Part shown: one piece after another, positions 3,299-61,817 of the stretch
Numbering within the stretch: position 1 is the first letter of the stretch
How the letters are laid out: the number at the start of each line of letters is the position of its first letter
DNA from: Pseudomonas kribbensis
GTDB lineage: Bacteria > Pseudomonadota > Gammaproteobacteria > Pseudomonadales > Pseudomonadaceae
Assembly (NCBI RefSeq): GCF_003352185.1
Contig: NZ_CP029608.1
Coordinates: forward strand, 2,232,001-2,296,000
Length of the DNA: 64,000 nucleotides
Direction of reading: 5' to 3'
Translations under genes and position numbers: made by a program
The notes under the pieces: generated by a model
Databases searched by the model: none
What the model was told of the DNA's origin: nothing
What the model saw: only the letters and a program-made list of their open reading frames with translations

Positions 3299-4189
3299 TC
3301 AGCCGAGAGTCCCTGGCAGATCGATTTGCGCGTCCAGCAGGGCCATAAACGCCCGTGCAGCATTCGACAGCGTCCGTTCGGTGTGCAGGATATAGCCTAG
3401 CTGGCGACTGAGCTGTATGCCCGGCAAAGGTATGCTCGCCACCTGTTCATCGAGCATGGTGCGCGGCAAAACGCTCCAGGCCAGGCCGATCGACACCATC
3501 ATCTTGATGGTTTCCAGATAGTTAGTGCTCATGGCGATGTTCGGCGTCAGGCCCTGAGCCTCGAACAGGCGTTGGACAATATGGTGGGTAAAGGTGTTGC
3601 CGCCGGGGAAAACCGCCGGATGGCCGGCAATGTCCGCCAATGTGACAGCGCCGTTGCTGATCAATGTGTGTTCCGGGGCGACCACGAAATCCAGCGGGTC
3701 GTCCCAGACCGGCGTGGCTTTGACCAGCGTATGCGGCTCCGGCGCCAGGGTGATGACCGCCAGTTCAGCCCGACCATGGAGAATTTCCTCGTAGGCCACT
3801 TCCGAATCGAGGAACTGAATATCCAGCGCCACCTGTGGGTAGCGGCGGGTGTATTCCCTCAATAACGGCGGCAAACGGTGCAGACCGATGTGGTGACTGG
3901 TGGCCAGGGTCAGGCGCCCCGTGACTTCGCCGGTGAGGTTGGTCAGGGCGCGGCGGGTGTCATCGAGCACGTTGAGAATCTGATAGGCCCGTGGCAGCAA
4001 AGCCCGGCCGGCCTCGGTCAGGCCCACTTCACGGCCCAGCCGGTCGAACAGCCGCACATTCAATTGCTGCTCCAGCCCGGCGATACGTTTGCTGATCGCC
4101 GGTTGCGTCAGGTGCAGGCGTTCACCGGCGCCGGAGAAGCTCCCGGACTCGGCAATTGCGATAAAAGCATTGAGGTTGGCCAGATCCAT
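3299..4189 (-). CDS. LysR-family transcriptional regulator, divergent from leuC
   Basis: DNA-binding regulator of 296 residues, the usual LysR length. The N-terminal winged helix-turn-helix (residues 1-60) shows the typical LNAF, SFSGAGERLHLTQPAIS and LFDR patterns. It is followed by the substrate-binding domain (about 90-290). I chose the ATG at 4189 because MDLANLNAF is the standard LysR N-terminus; an in-frame ATG ten codons upstream would add an atypical tail. It is transcribed away from leuC across a 140-bp intergenic region. That is the classical arrangement for a LysR protein that controls its divergent neighbour, so it may regulate the leu genes. The effector is unknown, and an isopropylmalate-type signal would be a guess. 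Confidence 0.9.
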   Translation of the reverse strand: MDLANLNAFIAIAESGSFSGAGERLHLTQPAISKRIAGLEQQLNVRLFDRLGREVGLTEAGRALLPRAYQILNVLDDTRRALTNLTGEVTGRLTLATSHHIGLHRLPPLLREYTRRYPQVALDIQFLDSEVAYEEILHGRAELAVITLAPEPHTLVKATPVWDDPLDFVVAPEHTLISNGAVTLADIAGHPAVFPGGNTFTHHIVQRLFEAQGLTPNIAMSTNYLETIKMMVSIGLAWSVLPRTMLDEQVASIPLPGIQLSRQLGYILHTERTLSNAARAFMALLDAQIDLPGTLG

Positions 4190-4329
4190 GTTCGCATTCC
4201 AGTTGGTTATCCAAAGCATAAAAAATATGAATTTGAGTTATTCAATCTAACCCCATAGGATCGGCCTCACAAGCCAAAGGGTTATTGATAAGCCCAGGGC
4301 ATAGAAACAAGCTGATGAGGAAACGTCTG

Positions 4330-5748
4330 ATGGCCGGCAAAACGCTCTACGACAAGCTCTGGGATTCGCATTTGGTCAAGCAGCGCGACGATGGTTCGGC
4401 GCTGATCTATATCGATCGTCACATCATCCACGAAGTGACCTCGCCGCAAGCCTTCGATGGCCTGCGTCTGGCCGGGCGCAAGCCATGGCGCATCGATGCC
4501 AACATCGCGACCCCGGACCACAACGTACCGACCACCCCGGAGCGCAAGGGCGGCATCAGTGCCATTGCCGACCAGGTCTCGCGTTTGCAGGTTCAGACCC
4601 TCGACGACAACTGCGATGAATACGGCATCGTCGAATTCAAGATGAACGACGTGCGCCAGGGCATCGTCCACGTCATCAGCCCGGAGCAGGGCGCAACCTT
4701 GCCGGGCATGACCGTGGTCTGCGGCGACTCCCACACCTCGACCCACGGCGCTTTCGGCGCATTGGCCCACGGTATCGGTACTTCCGAGGTCGAGCACGTG
4801 CTCGCCACCCAGTGCCTGGTCGCCAAGAAAATGAAGAACATGCTGGTGCGCGTCGAAGGCCAGTTGCCGTTCGGCGTGACCGCCAAGGACATCGTCCTCG
4901 CCGTGATCGGCAAGATCGGCACCGCAGGTGGTAACGGCCATGCCATGGAGTTCGCCGGCAGCGCGATCCGTGATTTGTCCATCGAAGGCCGCATGACCAT
5001 CTGCAATATGTCCATCGAAGCCGGCGCCCGTGTGGGCCTGGTGGCGGCGGACCAGAAGACTGTGGATTACGTCAAGGGTCGTCCGTTCGCACCGAAAGGC
5101 GCCGAGTGGGATCTGGCGGTCGAATCCTGGAAAGACCTGGTGTCCGACGCCGACGCGCATTTCGACACCGTGGTCGAACTCGATGCTGCGCAGATCAAGC
5201 CGCAAGTCAGTTGGGGCACTTCGCCGGAAATGGTATTGGCCGTTGATCAGAACGTGCCGGACCCGGCCAAGGAGATGGATCTGGTCAAGCGCGACTCGAT
5301 CGTCCGCGCCTTGAAATACATGGGCCTGACCGCCAATCAGGCGATCACCGACATTCAGCTCGACCGCGTGTTCATCGGTTCCTGCACCAACTCGCGCATC
5401 GAAGACTTGCGCGCTGCGGCGGTGATCGCCAAGGGCCGCAAGGTCGCATCGACCATCAAGCAGGCCATCGTGGTGCCGGGCTCGGGTCTGGTGAAGGCGC
5501 AGGCCGAGGCCGAAGGTCTGGACAAGATCTTCCTCGAAGCCGGTTTCGAATGGCGCGAGCCAGGCTGCTCGATGTGCCTGGCGATGAACCCGGACCGTTT
5601 GGAGTCCGGCGAGCATTGCGCCTCGACGTCCAACCGTAACTTCGAAGGCCGTCAGGGCGTCGGTGGTCGTACCCACCTCGTCAGCCCGGCCATGGCCGCT
5701 GCGGCGGCGGTGAACGGTCGTTTCATCGACGTTCGTGAATTGATCTAA
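4330..5748 (+). CDS. leuC: 3-isopropylmalate dehydratase large subunit
   Basis: Large subunit of isopropylmalate isomerase in leucine biosynthesis; it pairs with LeuD. The protein has 472 residues, full length for the family. The three cysteines that hold the 4Fe-4S cluster are visible: Cys352 in GSCTNSR, and Cys413 and Cys416 in CSMC. Substrate-loop motifs [13 protein letters not shown] are intact. The ATG at 4330 gives the family N-terminus [11 protein letters not shown] and has GAGG ten bases upstream; the longer reading from 4285 adds an unconserved tail. leuD follows after 12 bases, so the two are certainly cotranscribed. Confidence 0.98.
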
Positions 5749-22623: not shown

Positions 22624-22699
22624 GGGTGATTAGCTCAGCTGGGAGAGCGTCTGCCTTACAAGCAGAATGTCGGCGGTTCGATCCCGTCATCACCCACCA
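22624..22699 (+). tRNA. tRNA-Val (anticodon TAC)
   Basis: A 76-nt cloverleaf with acceptor GGGTGAT / ATCACCC, D arm AGCTCAGCTGGGAGAGC, anticodon TAC in loop CTTACAA, T arm CGGCGGTTCGATCCCGTCA and encoded CCA. It is the first gene of a three-tRNA transcript. Confidence 0.97.
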
Positions 22700-22753
22700 C
22701 TCCCGAGAGACTTGCGAAAGCAAGAGGTAGGCTGAAAGTGCCTCCACCGACGC

Positions 22754-22830
22754 GCAGCGGTAGTTCAGTCGGTTAGAATACCGGCCTGTCACGCCGGGGG
22801 TCGCGGGTTCGAGTCCCGTCCGCTGCGCCA
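22754..22830 (+). tRNA. tRNA-Asp (anticodon GTC), copy 1
   Basis: A 77-nt cloverleaf with acceptor GCAGCGG / CCGCTGC, anticodon GTC between CCGGCCT and ACGCCGG, G73 discriminator and encoded CCA. Identical to copy 2. Confidence 0.97.
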
Positions 22831-22923
22831 TATTCAACGAGTCAGACACTGTCTGGTTCGCGATTGAAAAGCACCGAAGCTTTCAGTCAAACGAGTTACT
22901 TGAGCGTCAGCTCAAAGCGATAC

Positions 22924-23000
22924 GCAGCGGTAGTTCAGTCGGTTAGAATACCGGCCTGTCACGCCGGGGGTCGCGGGTTCGAGTCCCGTCCGCTGCGCCA
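22924..23000 (+). tRNA. tRNA-Asp (anticodon GTC), copy 2
   Basis: Exact duplicate of the preceding tRNA-Asp over 77 nt. The intergenic spacer differs from the spacer before copy 1. A terminator follows 76 bases downstream. Confidence 0.97.
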
Positions 23001-54808: not shown

Positions 54809-55018
54809 TTAATGGAGCGTCGCAGCCCTGCGACTTTCTCCAATCCTGATTCTGTCGAGTGCACGATTTAGCGCATCCAGAGCGTCAAGGAGTGCCTTGG
54901 CCTCGGACTCGCGTCCATCGCCCCAAAGACGTTCTGCCATGTTGTTCAGGGCCTGGATCGAGCGCTCTATCTCGGCAGCTGTTGCCGCCGTTTTACTTTG
55001 CGGCTGATTCTTTGGCAT
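54809..55018 (-). CDS. small protein overlapping the 3' end of rtcR
   Basis: Protein of 69 residues, MPKNQPQSKTAATAAEIERS at the start, then a helical stretch with heptad-like leucines (RSIQALNNMAERLWGDGRESEAKALLDALDALNRALDRI). Its ATG lies 25 bases inside rtcR in another frame and has AGGTGA four bases upstream, which suggests translational coupling. It resembles no family I know. It could accompany RtcR or be an independent small gene. Confidence 0.55.
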   Translation of the reverse strand: MPKNQPQSKTAATAAEIERSIQALNNMAERLWGDGRESEAKALLDALDALNRALDRIRIGESRRAATLH

Positions 55019-56612
55019 CGGTCACCTGGCTCCATTCAATTCCAAACCGTCCCAGATACTTTCTCAATCGGTCCGCATCATTGGGTTGTGCCTTCGCCTG
55101 GCGCGATATGCCGAACAAGCGTCTGCCGGCATCCGACAAGCTATCTGACTCTCTACACACTGCCAGTACGGCCTTCAATTGCAATCGGTCAAACAGGTCC
55201 ATGCCTTCGGCGTCTCCCGGCAAATCGTCCGTCATTCGTCCCGGTTGCTTCAGTCCCCAGGCATAACGAAGTCGATCAATTTCTTCCTGTACCTGCACTT
55301 CATCAATTCGCCCGCTGTCGGCCAGTGTTGCCATGCGTGTGATCGAGGCTGACAGTTCGCGAAAGTTGCCAAGCCATGCCGCTTCGCGTGAGCTGGCAAA
55401 GGCCAGATAGCGCCTTCGCGCTTCGAGGTTGAAGCGTACCAGTTGGCCGTGTTCGCGCGCGTGGCGTTCAAGTTCGAAGTCGATGTTCGGTTCGATGTCT
55501 TCGCGCCGACCCGCCAGGCCTGGCAGGTCAAACGTCCAGAGGTTGATTCGTGCGTAGAGATCTTCCCGAAACAAGCCTTCAGCGACACGGCTGCGCAGAT
55601 CGCGGTGGGTGCCGGCGATAATCAGAAAGTCGCTGTCGACTTCCTTGTCCGAACCGAGCGGGAAGAAGCGCTTCTCTTCAATGGCCTTGAGCAGCATGGC
55701 TTGTTCGTCTGCGCCCAGTTCGCCGATTTCATCGAGAAACAACATGCCACCGTCGGCGGCGCGCAACAGGCCGTCGCGGGCATTTTGCGCGCCAGTGAAG
55801 GCGCCTTTGACGTGGCCGAACAGCGCGGACATCGCACCGTCGCCGCGCAGGGTGGCGCAGTTCACTTCAACGAAGCGTCCCTGCATCTGGTGGCGGCCGC
55901 GTTTGAGCTCATAGATCCGCCGGGCGAGGAAGGATTTGCCAGCTCCGGTCGGGCCAATCAGCAGCATCGGCGCTTTCGAGCGCACAGCGACGCGTTCAAT
56001 CTGTTCGATGGAACGGTTGAACGCGGCGTTGCGTGTGGCGATGCCGGATTTAAGAAACTCCAGGCCTTCCAGCCGCTTGTTGGTAAAGCGAGTGGCAATG
56101 CGATCGTAGCGTGACAAATCCAGATCGATCAGCGCGTGGGTACCGGTAGCGGGCTCATCTTCGCTCTTGCGGCGGGCGGGGGAGGTCTGGATCAGTCGTG
56201 CCGGCAGGTAGCGCGCCTCGGTCAGCAGGAACCAGCAGATCTGCGCAACGTGGGTACCGGTGGTGATGTGGACCAGATAGTCCTCACGCTCGGTATCGAA
56301 GGTGTATTCGGTGGTGAAGTCGTGCAGCGCGCCGTAGACCTCCTCGAAATCCCACGGGTTGCGCAGCGCCATCGGGTGCAGGCAGACCTCGGTTTCAGGC
56401 GATACCTGGCGAATGTCTTGGCGAACCCGTTCGGCAAGGCTGATGTCTCGGGCGTCAGTACCGTGAATCAACTCCAGCCGATGGATCAGCACATCCGGCT
56501 GCTGGCACAGGCCCACGCTCGGGCGCCAATGGTTCCAGCGATTGGCGCCTTTGCCTACGCGATCGAGGGTTGCTCCGATGAAACCGATGGCAACAGTGCG
56601 CTTGTTTTGCAT
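54993..56612 (-). CDS. rtcR: RtcR, sigma-54-dependent activator of the RNA-repair operon
   Basis: Activator of 539 residues. The N-terminal RtcR regulatory domain (about 1-180, a CARF-type fold in published work) begins KRTVAIGFIGATLDRVGKGANRW and ends in the YDRIATRF region. The AAA+ domain has Walker A GPTGAGKSFLA with Lys near 226, sigma-54 contact loop GAFTGAQ near 270 and Walker B GMLFLDEIGELG. A C-terminal DNA-binding domain follows (FDRLQLKAVLAVCRES, KYLGRFG). It is divergent from rsr. In related systems the CARF domain restrains the ATPase until RNA ligands bind. Confidence 0.96.
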   Translation of the reverse strand: MQNKRTVAIGFIGATLDRVGKGANRWNHWRPSVGLCQQPDVLIHRLELIHGTDARDISLAERVRQDIRQVSPETEVCLHPMALRNPWDFEEVYGALHDFTTEYTFDTEREDYLVHITTGTHVAQICWFLLTEARYLPARLIQTSPARRKSEDEPATGTHALIDLDLSRYDRIATRFTNKRLEGLEFLKSGIATRNAAFNRSIEQIERVAVRSKAPMLLIGPTGAGKSFLARRIYELKRGRHQMQGRFVEVNCATLRGDGAMSALFGHVKGAFTGAQNARDGLLRAADGGMLFLDEIGELGADEQAMLLKAIEEKRFFPLGSDKEVDSDFLIIAGTHRDLRSRVAEGLFREDLYARINLWTFDLPGLAGRREDIEPNIDFELERHAREHGQLVRFNLEARRRYLAFASSREAAWLGNFRELSASITRMATLADSGRIDEVQVQEEIDRLRYAWGLKQPGRMTDDLPGDAEGMDLFDRLQLKAVLAVCRESDSLSDAGRRLFGISRQAKAQPNDADRLRKYLGRFGIEWSQVTDAKESAAK

Positions 56613-56759: not shown

Positions 56760-56775
56760 TGGCACGGCTGCTGCA
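56760..56775 (+). promoter_or_regulatory. sigma-54 promoter of the rsr-rtcBA operon
   Basis: TGGCACGGCTGCTGCA matches TGGCACR-N4-TTGCW with GG and GC at the right spacing and one mismatch (C for T at the first base of the -12 block). It lies 42 bases before the rsr ATG, and an RtcR gene is divergent. Confidence 0.85.
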
Positions 56776-56817: not shown

Positions 56818-58365
56818 ATGGCCAACTTGAATCTCTTCAACACACAATCGAACAACCTGCCGGCGTGCGATACCGTGAATGCTTCGGGAGCCGGAGCTTA
56901 TGCCTATACGCCCAAGCATCAACTGGCCCAGTTGGCAGTGACCGGTTGTCTGAACCAGACCTTTTACGCAACGGCGGAAAACCAGCTGGATCAGGTGTTG
57001 AAACTGGTGGCCGAACTGGACAGCCGCTTTGTGGCCAACGCTGCGATATACGCCCGCCAGAAAGGCCATATGAAAGACATGCCGGCCTTGTTGCTGGCGG
57101 CGCTGACCGCCCAGCGTTCGGTATTGGTACCGGAGGTGTTCGGGGAGATCGTGGACAGTGGCAAGATGCTGCGCAACTTCGTACAGATCCTGCGCAGTGG
57201 TGCGACCGGGCGAAAATCCCTGGGCTCGCAGCCCAAGCGACTGGTTCAGGACTGGCTGAACCGCGCGACCGAGCGACAACTGCTGCAAGCATCGATCGGC
57301 AATCAGCCCTCGTTGGCGGATGTGGTGAAAATGGTTCACCCCAAACCGTCCGAAGTCTGGCGCGAAGCGTTCTTCGCCTGGCTGATAGGCAAACCGGTGG
57401 ACGTACAAACGCTGCCGGAACTGACCCGCGATCTGCTGGCGTTTCGCAGCGGTGCAAGTGATCGAGTACCCGAGGTGCCTTTTCAATTGCTCGGCAACGA
57501 AACCCTGAGCAAGGAGCAATGGGCCGCTCAAGCGCAAAACATGGGTTGGCAGGGACTTCGCATCAACCTCAACACCCTGGCGCGCCATGGTGCTTTTGAA
57601 GTTCCGGGCTGCGCTGAATACGTGGCTGCGCGATTGGCGGATCCCGAAGCAGTCGCCAAGGCGCGGGTGTATCCGTACCAGTTGCTGACGGCGTACCGAA
57701 TGGTTGGTGATGATGTTCCGGCGCCAATACGTGAGGCGCTGCAAGATGCACTTGAGTTGTCGTTGGCCAATGTGCCGAAGCTTGAAGGCGCGGTGGTGGT
57801 CTGCCCGGACGTCTCCGGGTCGATGGGCAGCCCGCTGACCGGTTACCGACAGGGCGCGACCACGACGGTGCGCTGCATCGATGTGGCGGCGTTGATCACG
57901 GCAGCGGTGTTGCGCAAACAGCCAGCCGCGCGAGTGATGCCGTTCGAGGTCGACGTGGTGGATATCACGCTCAACCCGCGGGACAGTGTGATCAGCAATG
58001 CCGAAAAGCTTGCGGGCATATTCGGTGGCGGAACCTGCTGCTCGGCGCCGCTGAAAAAACTGGCAGACAGCAAGGCCAGGGTCGATACGCTGATCATGGT
58101 GTCGGACAACGAATCCTGGATCGATGCGCGACGTCGAGGGGCGAGCGAAACGATGCTGCAATGGGAGCGGATAAAGCGGCTCAACCCGCAGGCACGCCTG
58201 ATCTGTATCGACCTGCAGCCGGGTTGGGCGACTCCGGCGGCGGATCGCGGCGACATCCTGAATGTCGGCGGCTTCAGTGATGCGGTGTTTGATGTGATCG
58301 AACAATTCACCGCCGGCCGGTACGGCCCGCAGCACTGGGTCGAAGCGATCGAACGTATGGAATGA
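56818..58365 (+). CDS. rsr: Ro60-like TROVE/vWA RNA-binding protein (Rsr)
   Basis: Bacterial orthologue of the Ro autoantigen, 515 residues. The TROVE HEAT-repeat ring occupies about 1-325 (LDSRFVANAAIYARQKGHMKDMP near 65). The C-terminal vWA domain has a complete MIDAS start, DVSGSMGSP with Asp331, and a later IMVSDNESW segment. Ro proteins bind misfolded RNA in the ring and Y RNA on its outer face, and in bacteria work with PNPase. It is the first gene of the sigma-54 operon. The stop is 17 bases before the first of three Y-RNA-like elements, which supports a Ro-Y ribonucleoprotein. Confidence 0.96.
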   Translation: MANLNLFNTQSNNLPACDTVNASGAGAYAYTPKHQLAQLAVTGCLNQTFYATAENQLDQVLKLVAELDSRFVANAAIYARQKGHMKDMPALLLAALTAQRSVLVPEVFGEIVDSGKMLRNFVQILRSGATGRKSLGSQPKRLVQDWLNRATERQLLQASIGNQPSLADVVKMVHPKPSEVWREAFFAWLIGKPVDVQTLPELTRDLLAFRSGASDRVPEVPFQLLGNETLSKEQWAAQAQNMGWQGLRINLNTLARHGAFEVPGCAEYVAARLADPEAVAKARVYPYQLLTAYRMVGDDVPAPIREALQDALELSLANVPKLEGAVVVCPDVSGSMGSPLTGYRQGATTTVRCIDVAALITAAVLRKQPAARVMPFEVDVVDITLNPRDSVISNAEKLAGIFGGGTCCSAPLKKLADSKARVDTLIMVSDNESWIDARRRGASETMLQWERIKRLNPQARLICIDLQPGWATPAADRGDILNVGGFSDAVFDVIEQFTAGRYGPQHWVEAIERME

Positions 58366-58382
58366 AGCTGAATAATTGATTT

Positions 58383-58452
58383 GTCACGGGCACTGAATGC
58401 CGGTGGGACTACATCCAAGACGTCTCATCAAACCCTTGTCAGTGCGCGTGAC
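58383..58452 (+). ncRNA. Y-RNA-like element 1
   Basis: A 70-nt fold. The outer stem is 14 bp with one G-G mismatch (58383-58396 with 58439-58452). The 5' internal-loop strand is ATGCC (58397-58401) and the 3' strand AAACCCTTG (58430-58438). The inner stem GGTGGGAC (58402-58409) pairs with GTCTCATC (58422-58429), eight bp including two G-T pairs, closing a 12-base loop that begins TACA. The GAATGCC strand and the CCTTGTC strand recur in elements 2 and 3. Identity as a Y RNA is inferred from the adjacent Ro gene, the bulged helix and its resemblance to the Ro-binding helix of animal Y RNAs. Confidence 0.75.
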
Positions 58453-58537
58453 GGCACGAATGCCGATGGCTGTACATCTGAGGCCGGCTCACCCCGGTGC
58501 GCGGCGACGCGCAACAGTCATCAACCTTTGTCGTGCC
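58453..58537 (+). ncRNA. Y-RNA-like element 2
   Basis: An 85-nt fold that starts on the base after element 1. Outer stem GGCACGA (58453-58459) with TCGTGCC (58531-58537). Internal loop ATGCC against AACCTTTG. Inner stem GATGGCTGT (58465-58473) with ACAGTCATC (58514-58522), nine bp. Above it are two side hairpins: CCGG stem 58484-58497, and a six-bp TGCGCG / CGCGCA stem with GCGA tetraloop at 58498-58513. A CCACC-T5 tract follows (58536-58545). No tRNA-like part was recognised. Confidence 0.75.
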
Positions 58538-58552
58538 ACCTTTTTCGAATTT

Positions 58553-58675
58553 GCCCGGCGAATGCCGGTGGAACTACAGGACAGCGTGGGCACGGGTTCG
58601 AATCCCGTCGACCGAAGGGTCGTAGCTCAGCGGTAGAGCGCGCTGCATGTTTCACCCGACCTTGTCGCCGAAGGC
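58553..58675 (+). ncRNA. Y-RNA-like element 3 with a circularly permuted tRNA-like domain (YrlA type)
   Basis: A 123-nt fold. Outer stem GCC-CGGCGA (58553-58561) with TCGCCG-AA-GGC (58665-58675). Internal loop ATGCC against CGACCTTG. Inner stem GGTGGAAC (58567-58574) with GTTTCACC (58649-58656). On top stands a tRNA read from its anticodon loop outwards. In order it has anticodon-stem 3' strand CAGCG (58582-58586), variable loop TGGGC, T arm ACGGG-TTCGAAT-CCCGT (58592-58608) and acceptor CGACC-GAAG-GGTCG (58609-58622). Then come TA, D arm GCTC-AGCGGTA-GAGC (58625-58639), G and anticodon-stem 5' strand CGCTG (58641-58645). Known bacterial YrlA RNAs have tRNA-like domains. Confidence 0.85.
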
Positions 58676-58686
58676 TGTGTAACAGC

Positions 58687-58700
58687 GCCGAATCATCGGC
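58687..58700 (+). other. hairpin just before the rtcB start
   Basis: GCCGA-ATCA-TCGGC forms a five-bp hairpin 19 bases before rtcB. It could separate the RNA part from the coding part or affect rtcB translation, whose ribosome site is weak. Confidence 0.4.
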
Positions 58701-58719
58701 CAGACAATAAAGAATCGAG

Positions 58720-59949
58720 ATGATGAAAGAAAACACGTACCAACTGCTGGAAGTTGCCAACGGCAAGCCGATCAAGCTCTGGACCGAAGGCGTCCCGGTG
58801 GAAAACGAAGCTCGCGAGCAACTGATGAACACGGCGAAGATGCCCTTCATCTTCAAGCATCTCGCCGTAATGCCGGATGTCCACCTGGGCAAGGGCTCGA
58901 CCATTGGCAGCGTGATTCCCACCGTGGGCGCGATCATTCCGGCGGCGGTCGGGGTCGATATCGGCTGCGGCATGATTGCCGCGCGGACTTCGCTGACCGC
59001 TGCCGATCTGCCGGACAACCTGCACGGTCTGCGCAGTGCGATCGAACAGGCGGTGCCTCATGGCCGCAGTTCGACCCGGTCGCGGCGAGACAAGGGCGCC
59101 TGGGACGAGATCCCGAAGGAGGCCGATCAGGCTTGGGCGGCGCTGCATCCACGGTTCAAGGCAATCACCGACAAGTACCCGAAACTGGTCAACACCAACA
59201 ACCGTGGACACTTGGGAACACTGGGCAGCGGCAACCATTTCATCGAAGTGTGTCTGGATGAGGCCAACCGGGTCTGGTTCATGTTGCACAGCGGCTCGCG
59301 GGGTGTCGGCAACGCCATCGGCAACCTGTTCATCCAGATGGCACAGGCGGATATGCGTCAGCACATCGCCAATCTGCCGGACCGTGACCTGGCCTACTTC
59401 GAAGAAGGCAGCCAGCACTTTGATGATTACGTGGAGGCGGTGGGCTGGGCCCAGGACTTCGCCAGGCAGAACCGCGCGTTGATGATGCAGGCCGTGATTC
59501 AGGCCACGCGGCAGATTATCCGCAAGCCGTTCGAGGTAGCGCTGGAGGCGGTGAACTGCCATCACAACTACGTGCAGAAAGAGCGGCATTTCGGCGAAGA
59601 CATTCTGGTCACCCGCAAAGGTGCGGTATCGGCGAAGAAGGGTGAGTTGGGGATCATTCCCGGCTCAATGGGCGCCAAGAGCTTCATTGTTCGCGGCTTG
59701 GGCAACGAGGAGTCGTTCTGCTCCTGCAGCCACGGTGCCGGCCGGACCATGAGTCGTACCCGAGCGAAAAACACCTTCACGGTCGAGGATCAGATCCGTG
59801 CCACTGCGCACGTTGAGTGCCGCAAGGATGCTGCAGTGATCGATGAAATTCCGATGGCCTACAAGGACATCGACAAAGTCATGCACGCCCAGCGCGAGCT
59901 GGTGGAAGTGCTGCACACCTTGCGTCAGGTGGTGTGCGTCAAGGGATAG
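58720..59949 (+). CDS. rtcB: RNA-splicing ligase RtcB
   Basis: GTP- and manganese-dependent ligase joining RNA 2',3'-cyclic phosphate or 3'-phosphate to 5'-OH ends. It has 409 residues, the E. coli size. Metal ligands are in MPDVHLGKGSTIG, GVDIGCGM (Cys), NNRGHLGTLGSGNHFIEV, and NCHHNYVQKE. The guanylylated histidine is in SCSHGAGRTMSR. Two tandem ATG codons (58720, 58723) are possible starts and no strong ribosome site is visible, so translation may depend on the upstream RNA structure. The nucleotidyltransferase gene follows after 39 bases. Confidence 0.97.
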   Translation: MMKENTYQLLEVANGKPIKLWTEGVPVENEAREQLMNTAKMPFIFKHLAVMPDVHLGKGSTIGSVIPTVGAIIPAAVGVDIGCGMIAARTSLTAADLPDNLHGLRSAIEQAVPHGRSSTRSRRDKGAWDEIPKEADQAWAALHPRFKAITDKYPKLVNTNNRGHLGTLGSGNHFIEVCLDEANRVWFMLHSGSRGVGNAIGNLFIQMAQADMRQHIANLPDRDLAYFEEGSQHFDDYVEAVGWAQDFARQNRALMMQAVIQATRQIIRKPFEVALEAVNCHHNYVQKERHFGEDILVTRKGAVSAKKGELGIIPGSMGAKSFIVRGLGNEESFCSCSHGAGRTMSRTRAKNTFTVEDQIRATAHVECRKDAAVIDEIPMAYKDIDKVMHAQRELVEVLHTLRQVVCVKG

Positions 59950-59988
59950 CGCGTGCCGCAAGGCACGCTGGAACAAGGATTGAAGGAC

Positions 59989-60777
59989 ATGAAATTCGAA
60001 GAACGTCACCCGTTGTGCAGCGCCATGCGCGCGCGGGTGCTGGAAGAGCTGGCGCGTATAGAGCGCGAGCGAAATGTCACGGTGTTGTATGCCTGTGAAT
60101 CGGGCAGTCGGGCCTGGGGATTTGCCTCGACCGACAGCGATTACGACGTGCGCTTCGTTTATGTGGAGAAACCCGAGTGGTTCGTCCAGGTCGATGCACC
60201 ACGGGACGTGATCGAGCGGCCGCTGGATGATGAACTTGATGTGAGCGGCTGGGAGCTGCGCAAAACCCTCGGGCTGTTGCGAAAGTCCAATCCGACATTG
60301 TTGGAGTGGCTGGACTCTCCGCTGGTGTACCGCAGCGAAACGTCGGCGGTTTCTCAACTGCGGACGCTCGCCGAGGCGTTCTACAGCCCGCCGGCCGCGC
60401 GCAATCACTACCTGTCGATGGCAAAGAAGAACTTCCGTGGCTATTTGCAGGGCGACAGCGTGAGGTTCAAGAAATACTTCTACGTATTGCGGCCTCTGCT
60501 GGCCGTGCGCTGGATCGACCAGGGGCGTGGCCGGCCACCGATGACGTTCGCAGACCTGCTGAGCACTGTCGATGACCGGGCGTTGCTCGAAGAGGTCGAC
60601 GAGCTGCTGGCGCTCAAACGCAATGCCGATGAAAGCGCCTACGGTCCTCGTCGTCCGGCGTTGCATGACTTCATCGCCAGGGAGCTCGAGCGCGAAGTGC
60701 GAACATTGCCCAGAACCCGGGAGGACTCCAGTCAGCTCGATCAATACCTCAGAGAAACCGTCGGGTTGTACGCATAA
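59989..60777 (+). CDS. Pol-beta-superfamily nucleotidyltransferase between rtcB and rtcA
   Basis: Predicted nucleotidyltransferase of 262 residues (COG3541-like). The fold signature is LYACESGSRAWGF near 32-44 followed by the metal-binding aspartates in STDSDYDVRFVYV. A helical C-terminal domain has NHYLSMAKKNFRGYL and FKKYFYVLRPLLAVRW. ATG 59989 has AAGGA nine bases upstream; a GTG at 59953 is also possible. Position in an rtc operon suggests it adds nucleotides to damaged RNA ends. I recall a proposed RNA-repair family of this type (RlaP) but cannot confirm membership. rtcA follows after eight bases. Confidence 0.85.
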   Translation: MKFEERHPLCSAMRARVLEELARIERERNVTVLYACESGSRAWGFASTDSDYDVRFVYVEKPEWFVQVDAPRDVIERPLDDELDVSGWELRKTLGLLRKSNPTLLEWLDSPLVYRSETSAVSQLRTLAEAFYSPPAARNHYLSMAKKNFRGYLQGDSVRFKKYFYVLRPLLAVRWIDQGRGRPPMTFADLLSTVDDRALLEEVDELLALKRNADESAYGPRRPALHDFIARELEREVRTLPRTREDSSQLDQYLRETVGLYA

Positions 60778-60785
60778 GGAAGAAA

Positions 60786-61817
60786 ATGAAACAGGACGTG
60801 ATTGAACTGGACGGCGCTATCGGCGGTGGCCAGGTGTTGCGCAGCGCCTTGAGCCTGTCGATGGTGACGGGGCGGCCATTTCGCATTGAGCGTATTCGTG
60901 CCAAACGCAGCCGTCCAGGGTTGTTACGACAGCACCTGACCGCCGTGATGGCGGCGGCGCAGGTCTGTGGTGCAAGGACTCAAGGCGCAGAGTTGGGTTC
61001 GCAGGCGTTGAGCTTCGAGCCCGGGCCGATTCGCGGCGGCGAATACCGCTTTGCCATTGGGACTGCCGGCAGTTGCACACTGGTATTGCAGACCTTGCTG
61101 CCCGCATTGTTACGGGCACCGCAAGCCAGTCGGGTATGGATCAGCGGTGGCACCCATAATCCGTTGGCGCCGCCGACCGATTTCCTCACCCGCAGCTGGT
61201 TACCGTTGATGCGACGCATGGGCGCCGAGATTGATCTGGAGCTGCTGCGTCATGGGTTCGTTCCGGCAGGTGGCGGCGAAATCGAGGTCACGGTGCAACC
61301 GTCGAAACTGTCAGCGTTGCATGTGTGTGATCGAGGCTCGGCTCTTTCGCAAAAGGCGTTTGCGCTGACGGCAGGGCTCGCATCGGACATAGCCAGACGT
61401 GAGCTTGACCGTGTGGCCCGGCGTTTGGATGTGCGGCCAGCAGCGATGAATGCCATCAGTCTTGATCCGGATTGCGGGCCGGGTAACGTGTTGTTGCTGG
61501 AGTACGCGTTTGAGCACGTCACGGAAGTATTCAGCGCGTTTGGCCAGGCTTCACTGCGCGCAGAGGCCGTTGCGGACGTTGCGATCAATCAGGCAGACGC
61601 TTGGCTGCGCAGTGGCGCAGCAGTGGCCGAGCATCTGGCCGATCAACTGTTGTTGCCGATGGCGCTGGCCGGATCGGGCTCGTTTACGACCCCCGGGATG
61701 ACCGAGCATTTGCACAGCAACATCGCCGTGATCGAGCGTTTTTTGCCAGTCTCCATCGCATGTCTCGAAGAAGGCGCCGATCAATTGAGGATCGAAGTCA
61801 GCACCCGGGACCAATAG
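60786..61817 (+). CDS. rtcA: RNA 3'-terminal phosphate cyclase
   Basis: Converts RNA 3'-phosphate to 2',3'-cyclic phosphate using ATP, giving RtcB a substrate. It has 343 residues. The N-terminal ELDGAIGGGQVLRSALSLSMVTGRPF, the RPGLLRQHLTAV strand-helix and GTAGSCTLVLQTLLPAL are typical. The likely adenylylated histidine lies in the late EHLHSNIAVIERFLPV block. It is the last gene of the operon; no strong terminator was seen after it. Confidence 0.96.
   Translation: MKQDVIELDGAIGGGQVLRSALSLSMVTGRPFRIERIRAKRSRPGLLRQHLTAVMAAAQVCGARTQGAELGSQALSFEPGPIRGGEYRFAIGTAGSCTLVLQTLLPALLRAPQASRVWISGGTHNPLAPPTDFLTRSWLPLMRRMGAEIDLELLRHGFVPAGGGEIEVTVQPSKLSALHVCDRGSALSQKAFALTAGLASDIARRELDRVARRLDVRPAAMNAISLDPDCGPGNVLLLEYAFEHVTEVFSAFGQASLRAEAVADVAINQADAWLRSGAAVAEHLADQLLLPMALAGSGSFTTPGMTEHLHSNIAVIERFLPVSIACLEEGADQLRIEVSTRDQ

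Follow-up and report, generated by a model that had tools for sequence, protein, structure and literature searches.

The 354-base gap between the Ro60 orthologue rsr and the RNA ligase gene rtcB holds an array of three Y RNA units, spanning positions 58383-58674 of the window, by which we mean the whole 64-kb stretch of DNA that was analysed. All three units share a common design of an outer and an inner stem joined by an internal loop whose 5' strand carries AUGC, and the last unit is YrlA. The operon is of a known kind and its array takes a new form. The feature is real and strongly supported; the observation of the earlier note on this DNA, which had placed three Y-RNA-like units in the gap, is confirmed, and its interpretation is supported in part. 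It is probable that two kinds of unit are transcribed with the RtcR operon, the short ones as likely partners of Rsr and YrlA as a tether of Rsr to an exonuclease, which may in addition serve RtcB.

Operon setting and structure of the three units

The genes rsr (56818-58365, + strand; Pfam vWA_Ro60 4.8e-16 and TROVE 2.7e-8), rtcB (58720-59949, +; Pfam RtcB 1.9e-132), rlaP of the RNA repair nucleotidyltransferase family (59953-60777, +; Pfam RlaP 3e-98), and rtcA for an RNA 3'-phosphate cyclase (60786-61817, +; Pfam RTC 4e-79) run in one direction with the Y array, and rtcR (54993-56612, − strand; Pfam RtcR 6.5e-84 and Sigma54_activat 1.2e-49) runs divergently in the opposite one. The Ro gene lies immediately upstream of the array, as the earlier note had it. 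A predicted sigma-54 promoter, TGGCAC-N5-CTGCA (56760-56775, +), starts 58 bases before rsr and departs from the consensus pattern by one mismatch. The predicted site alone is not significant, with 3 matches in the window against 3.43 expected. A similar site, found with a looser pattern, starts at -55 to -58 of rsr in 43/43 other arrays with upstream sequence. The divergent rtcR, the predicted sigma-54 site conserved in position, rtcB and rtcA together mark an RtcR/sigma-54 RNA-repair operon. Two marks of Rsr partners are also present, namely the linkage to rsr in the window and, in the slot alignments described below, a conserved outer stem with an internal loop.

Unit 1 (58383-58452, +; fold, covariation and model R1) occupies slot S1 and is a short form without an effector domain, unit 2 (58453-58537, +; fold, covariation and model R2) occupies slot S2 and has two small hairpins replacing the tRNA-like domain, and unit 3 (58555-58674, +; Rfam RF02553 and covariation) occupies slot S5. 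Units 1 and 2 score 88.6 bits with R1 and 84.3 bits with R2, the alignment behind each model including the unit itself. Most details of the earlier note proved correct: unit 2 begins on the base after unit 1 (58452/58453), GAATGCC is found in all three units, and the inner-stem strands and the pair changes between units are as given, the second inner pair being G-T, A-T and G-C. The outer stems are likewise present, with the correction that the 14-bp stem of unit 1 includes one G-G mismatch. For unit 3 the Y-like stems had been recognised and the tRNA-like domain had gone unmentioned.

Single-strand folding gave -32.6 kcal/mol (z -3.46) for unit 1, -39.8 kcal/mol (z -2.68) for unit 2 and -52.4 kcal/mol for unit 3, where the z of -1.01 means that folding energy by itself is not significant; the entire gap folds with z -2.42. 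Across the 64 kb, a strict descriptor modelled on the units matched 4 times on the + strand, where the units account for 3, and 0 times on the − strand. The corresponding counts were 6 (again including the 3 units) and 1 at a middle setting, and 43 and 29 at the loosest.

The tRNA-like domain, as demonstrated by the Rfam alignment and covariation, belongs to unit 3 only. It comprises a T-arm, ACGGG TTCGAAT CCCGT (58592-58608, +; sequence and Rfam alignment), an acceptor-like hairpin, CGACC GAAG GGTCG (58609-58622, +), with double changes in 4/5 pairs, and a D-arm (58625-58639, +), whose four pairs are kept in 30/30 sequences and whose position 3' of the T-arm gives a permuted order. Specifically, unit 3 reaches 75.3 bits with the YrlA model RF02553 against a curated cut-off of 69, and units 1 and 2, without a tRNA-like domain, stay below it at 23.5 and 25.3 bits. 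ARAGORN does not list unit 3 as a tRNA. Weak matches to part of RF02553, such as model positions 26-82, look like ordinary tRNAs and were left uncounted. Elsewhere in the window, a tRNA-Val gene and two tRNA-Asp genes are clustered at 22624-23000.

In unit 2, a CCGG/CCGG hairpin (58484-58497, +; fold, sequence and relatives) stands at the position of the T-arm. Its T-loop letters are lost here and read TTCGA or TTTCGATA in some relatives. The second hairpin (58499-58512, +) shows double changes at all five pairs in relatives. The cut-off of the YrlB model RF02565, 97 bits, is missed by unit 2 with 18.5 bits, and unit 1 is absent from the matches at E 5, so that S1 and S2 are at most like YrlB in position and shape. 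They represent two unit classes that the Rfam YrlA and YrlB cut-offs leave unreported in the window. No intrinsic terminators were found within the array.

Base pairing in these units is conserved across relatives. The structures evaluated were the window folds with a few pairs added from relatives, counted on relatives' alignments that hold all 41 distinct normal-size sequences of S1 (excluding two large forms as well as L032 and L092), 39 of 48 distinct sequences of S2, and all 30 distinct sequences of S5. In S1, 91.7% of the cells are paired and 135 cells show double changes, compared with a shuffled mean of 37.9; the values are 96.9% and 69 against 18.9 for S2, and 95.2% and 76 against 24.2 for S5. 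For all three slots, 0/500 shuffles attain the observed covariation score, share of paired cells or number of double-change cells. Double changes are seen at 14/22, 12/26 and 11/34 pairs of S1, S2 and S5, which 5, 0 and 2 of the 500 shuffles equal; the weakest measure, further pair types, is equalled by 63, 5 and 66. The shuffles ignore relatedness, and sliding the partners by 1 to 3 columns, which keeps relatedness, removes the covariation signal. The pairs thus covary across relatives in all three units, in agreement with the earlier claim of a selected RNA structure made from compensatory change. That claim had been staked on homologous regions not having lost both the stems and GAATGCC, and it survived the comparison.

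The motif GAATGC occurs in 198/200 units of rsr-bearing arrays, as counted by a scan requiring GAA[TC][GA]C, which may miss more altered units as it did at L054, and AUAC replaces AUGC in 2/200. TACA starts 15 or 16 bases after the G of GAATGC in 188/200 units, the short S1 included, and lies within 18 bases after GAATGC in 34/35 called units from nine loci of other groups. The inner helix bounded by AUGC and UACA hardly varies and has the look of a core common to the units, with a putative role. At the AT-rich rsr locus L054 (G160), three tandem Y-like units are seen by eye at about 1490-1890, with a YrlA match of 62.4 bits; the scan missed them because other pairs replace the G-A/T-C pairs before AUGC and GAATGC is absent.

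Slots and architectures among relatives

To place the window among its relatives, we compared 54 distinct arrays drawn from named records, other genomes of the family and 398 sampled genus genomes, of which 42 yielded rsr. The arrays are distinct in sequence, some being near-copies. Dropped before this count were 14 loci whose intergenic sequence duplicated that of another locus, L021 (from the genome of L020), five loci with rtcB and no rsr match (L053, L061, L100, L102 and L103), and ten loci below 70% Rsr identity (L035, L037-L044 and L054), nine of which were analysed separately and L054 apart; loci without an rsr or rtcB match were never counted. A few settings were made by hand: the S1 of L092, missed by the relaxed scan, was added, that of L032 was taken at span 50, those of L016 and L047 are a larger T-arm form, and two L047 slots were named by position.

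Each of the 54 Pseudomonadaceae arrays has between 2 and 5 units, which fall into a fixed order of orthologous slots (S1 to S5), and the outer stems are characteristic of the slot. Eighteen read S1-S2-S3-S4-S5, 17 read S1-S2-S4 and 10, the window included, read S1-S2-S5; the remainder are S1-S2 (4), S1-S2-S3-S4 (2), S1-S2-S1-S2-S5 (2) and S1-S2-S3-S5 (1). S1 and S2 are thus present in 54/54 arrays, and S3, S4 and S5 are variable. The earlier note had supposed that three back-to-back units would be unusual, a view that does not stand: with at least three units in 50/54 arrays, this is common and not an oddity of the present genome. Judged from sequence, the window's array is a smaller form of the relatives' five-unit array. 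Multi-unit arrays also occur in Comamonas and Alphaproteobacteria. In the alphaproteobacterial loci L039-L041 and L043, 4-6 units were called downstream of rsr, and what follows them is no more than a distant relative of RtcB, with about 26% identity to the window's RtcB. Among the titles and abstract openings of open-licence papers that we surveyed, none concerned Y RNA arrays in Pseudomonas, and an earlier account elsewhere is possible.

Slot identity extends across the deepest split of the tree. With outer stems excluded, the nearest unit across this split is of the same slot for 192/199 units, and 189/199 are closer to a same-slot unit across the split than to any unit of their own array, a test that partly reflects unit length because global alignment scores were used. 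On the first of these counts, we rejected the idea that the three units arose by recent duplication within the locus. In the Rsr tree, which comes from a quick search with a branch test only and is rooted at the midpoint, five-slot arrays lie on both sides of the root, and the presence of S3, S4 and S5 changes 4, 6 and 5 times. Given the midpoint rooting, the direction of loss, not gain, is argued from the orthology of the slots together with the stubs and relics treated below.

Searches with slot models agree with the distribution of rsr. The S1 covariance model matches 18/149 genus genomes and the S2 model 19/149, the latter being exactly the genomes in which rsr was found; the 18 all fall within these 19, and the remaining one, G001 (L016), has the larger T-arm form of S1. 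Each matching genome has one S1 locus, apart from a single weak second match in G109 (30.7 bits). In L020/L021 (G106), rsr was matched as two overlapping pieces, one with an internal TAA, and all five Y slots are present. In L031 and L036 the S1-S2 pair is duplicated, and S2 is without hairpins there.

These patterns bear on an explanation by dosage, according to which all units are interchangeable Rsr ligands, whose copy number drifts by deletion and duplication with no division of labour. Such drift would account for the range of 2 to 5 units and for the duplicated S1-S2 pair; however, the slots are distinct and ordered and keep their identity across the deep split, and S1 and S2 are never missing while the other three come and go repeatedly. 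We therefore consider pure dosage unlikely and favour two kinds of unit with different tasks.

Reciprocal losses of the tRNA-like unit and of rsr

The units likely divide labour, since some relatives keep rsr with only the short units, and others keep the tRNA mimic without rsr. The first situation is seen in L003, L023, L045 and L080, which have rsr, S1 and S2, with no tRNA-like unit left and only an S5 stub. In the stub, the 5' strands of the outer and inner stems survive with AUGC, or a variant of it, between them; next comes a deletion, whose right-hand breakpoint in L003, L023 and L045 differs from that in L080. On the Rsr tree the S1-S2-only arrays need two origins, forced by starred branches. 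YrlA gave no match at E 0.001 in the 4 genomes with such arrays. Chen (2014) is said to have reported at least one tRNA-like Y RNA per species. The S2 of the S1-S2-only arrays keeps its two hairpins, so that a PNPase tether may remain, and the deletions could be chance events.

For the opposite situation, YrlA was matched at E 1e-8 in 41/398 genus genomes. One of them, G540, seemed to be an rsr-less match (47.6 bits) and was removed as a tRNA cluster; the other 40 comprise 38 genomes with rsr and two without (G553 and G565). Four genomes with rsr have no YrlA match at this threshold: G016 and G267 are S1-S2-only, and G436 and G480 (L075 and L076) have an S4 unit scoring below it. A third rsr-less YrlA genome, G306, comes from another genus of the family, so that the three represent two lineages; among 25 genomes of that genus, one other has YrlA, and it has rsr. 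In G306, G553 and G565, YrlA immediately precedes rtcB and rtcR is divergent, and vWA_Ro60 gave no match at E 0.1, whereas three rsr-bearing controls matched. Joint absence of rsr and YrlA is nevertheless the rule, as only 2/356 rsr-less genus genomes have YrlA and 354 are without it, counted irrespective of rtcB.

The history of the loss can be read in G553 and G565, where a remnant of rsr, its first 22 bases, matches L092 exactly and continues into the 3' half of an S4 unit. The best 15 unit matches of the sequence after this remnant are all S4, with 67/81 bases identical to the 3' half of the S4 of L017. The junction suggests that rsr, S1, S2, S3 and half of S4 were lost in one deletion. 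The AUGC strand of the rsr-less YrlA reads GCGC in G553 and G565 and AUAC in G306, and no YrlA match in the 398 genomes scores higher than that of G565 (93.7 bits). In G667, sampled at order level, a YrlA of 71.5 bits (L128, 4449-4592) has AUGC intact, with no Ro60 match, and is not beside rtcB. Two further genes were observed at rsr-less loci: in L124 (4097-4690) rtcR is separated from the YrlA-rtcB operon by a gene for a C92-type amidase (Pfam Peptidase_C92), and in L127 (G306; 3610-5418) a HEAT-repeat protein gene stands between rtcB and rtcA.

The comparison of G553 with G565 gives no support to selection on S5 after rsr loss and went against that reading. Substitutions number 74/1233 in rtcB, 2/115 in S5 and 2/107 in the S4 relic; the relic is conserved like S5, and S5 is thus not singled out. 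The YrlA of G553 and that of G565 fold no better than shuffles (z -0.90 and 0.32), and that of G306 folds better (z -2.63).

Together, the two reciprocal dissociations point to short units in the service of Rsr and to an extra tie of S5 to the RtcB side. The units may accordingly be viewed as two separable classes, the short ones as Rsr partners and the tRNA mimic with a possible Rsr-independent role beside RtcB. A further-reaching version holds that YrlA belongs to the RtcB/RtcR repair side, outlives Ro, works in tRNA-end repair and sheds its Rsr dock, with the short units as obligate Rsr partners; we put this forward only tentatively and think it rather less likely than not to be the full account.

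Proposed roles and comparison with known systems

Published work provides a framework for how the array might act. The Salmonella operon is described as turned on by RtcR upon tRNA fragments with cyclic-phosphate ends (PMC7790460), and the Y RNA stem as bound by Rsr, with a tRNA-like or two-hairpin end that binds PNPase (PMC8394870 and PMC6181284). By analogy, damaged-tRNA ends would activate RtcR, a sigma-54 transcript would span rsr, the Y array, rtcB, rlaP and rtcA, and the units would be freed from it by nucleases. The outer stem and the AUGC strand of the internal loop would form the Rsr dock, and all three units would bind Rsr. S1, without an effector domain, could presumably only cap Rsr, and S2, with its two small hairpins, may cap or tether it. 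S5 would tether Rsr and display the tRNA mimic, which in YrlA is the reported binding site of PNPase.

The tRNA-like unit could instead be a decoy for tRNA-cutting nucleases and not a PNPase tether, as put forward for Salmonella YrlA by Hughes et al. (PMC7790460). The retention of YrlA with RtcB, RtcR and RtcA in the absence of Rsr would suit a decoy. On the other hand, the Rfam model is without an anticodon arm, and in the same paper Hughes et al. found no YrlA fragments, which means that YrlA stays uncut, although a decoy need not be cut; we judge this function improbable.

We give slightly less credit still to a role in cis, in which the units, as a structured leader, would control the level of rtcB expression or shield the rtcB messenger after processing. 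In the window, L124 and L127 the distance from the end of the YrlA unit to rtcB is about 24-45 bases, the unit keeps its place before rtcB after rsr loss, and T runs follow S2 in 37/56 and S3 in 18/21 cases compared with 0/37 for S4 and 0/31 for S5, all of which a leader could explain. The S1-S2-only arrays, however, have lost the very unit adjoining rtcB, and in studied species Y RNAs form particles with Ro proteins (PMC4726728). Finally, a small protein gene, for which a 109-residue open frame (58381-58710) spans the interval, is contradicted by the relatives' gaps of 242 to 797 bases with indels and by changes that preserve base pairs, and mobile repeats are at odds with the one S1 locus per matching genome, so that we attach almost no weight to either.

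Under the favoured reading of short Rsr partners beside a tRNA mimic, the added value lies in the slot structure and in the pair of reciprocal dissociations, through which the tasks of Y RNAs in bacteria become testable. The arrays with rsr and short units only, and those with YrlA and rtcB without rsr, are natural experiments that can separate a tRNA mimic acting via Ro and PNPase from one acting with RNA repair itself.

Among known systems, the closest is the Salmonella rsr-yrlBA-rtcBA operon (YrlA RF02553, YrlB RF02565), which, according to PMC9879122, has a divergent rtcR as in the window and the order rsr, yrlB, yrlA, rtcB, rtcA, again with YrlA last before rtcB. Unit 3 of the window passes the same model as Salmonella YrlA. 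The window differs in having three units, with up to five in relatives, in its units 1 and 2, which fall far below the YrlA cut-off, with unit 2 also below that of YrlB, and in the presence of rlaP between rtcB and rtcA. The Y RNA of Deinococcus radiodurans in RYPER is a stem-bound Rsr ligand with an effector end, as is proposed for units here, and its PNPase-binding end, composed of two hairpins, one of them T-arm like, resembles unit 2 (PMC6181284). Compared with RYPER, the window has the linkage to rtcB and several units, of which S5, and perhaps S2, are candidate PNPase ligands. To our knowledge, the tRNA-like domain is a bacterial feature, in contrast to vertebrate Y RNAs. The latter likewise have a lower stem with bulges, bound there by Ro60, and the vertebrate clades are described as sharing no homology with bacterial Y RNAs (PMC4726728).
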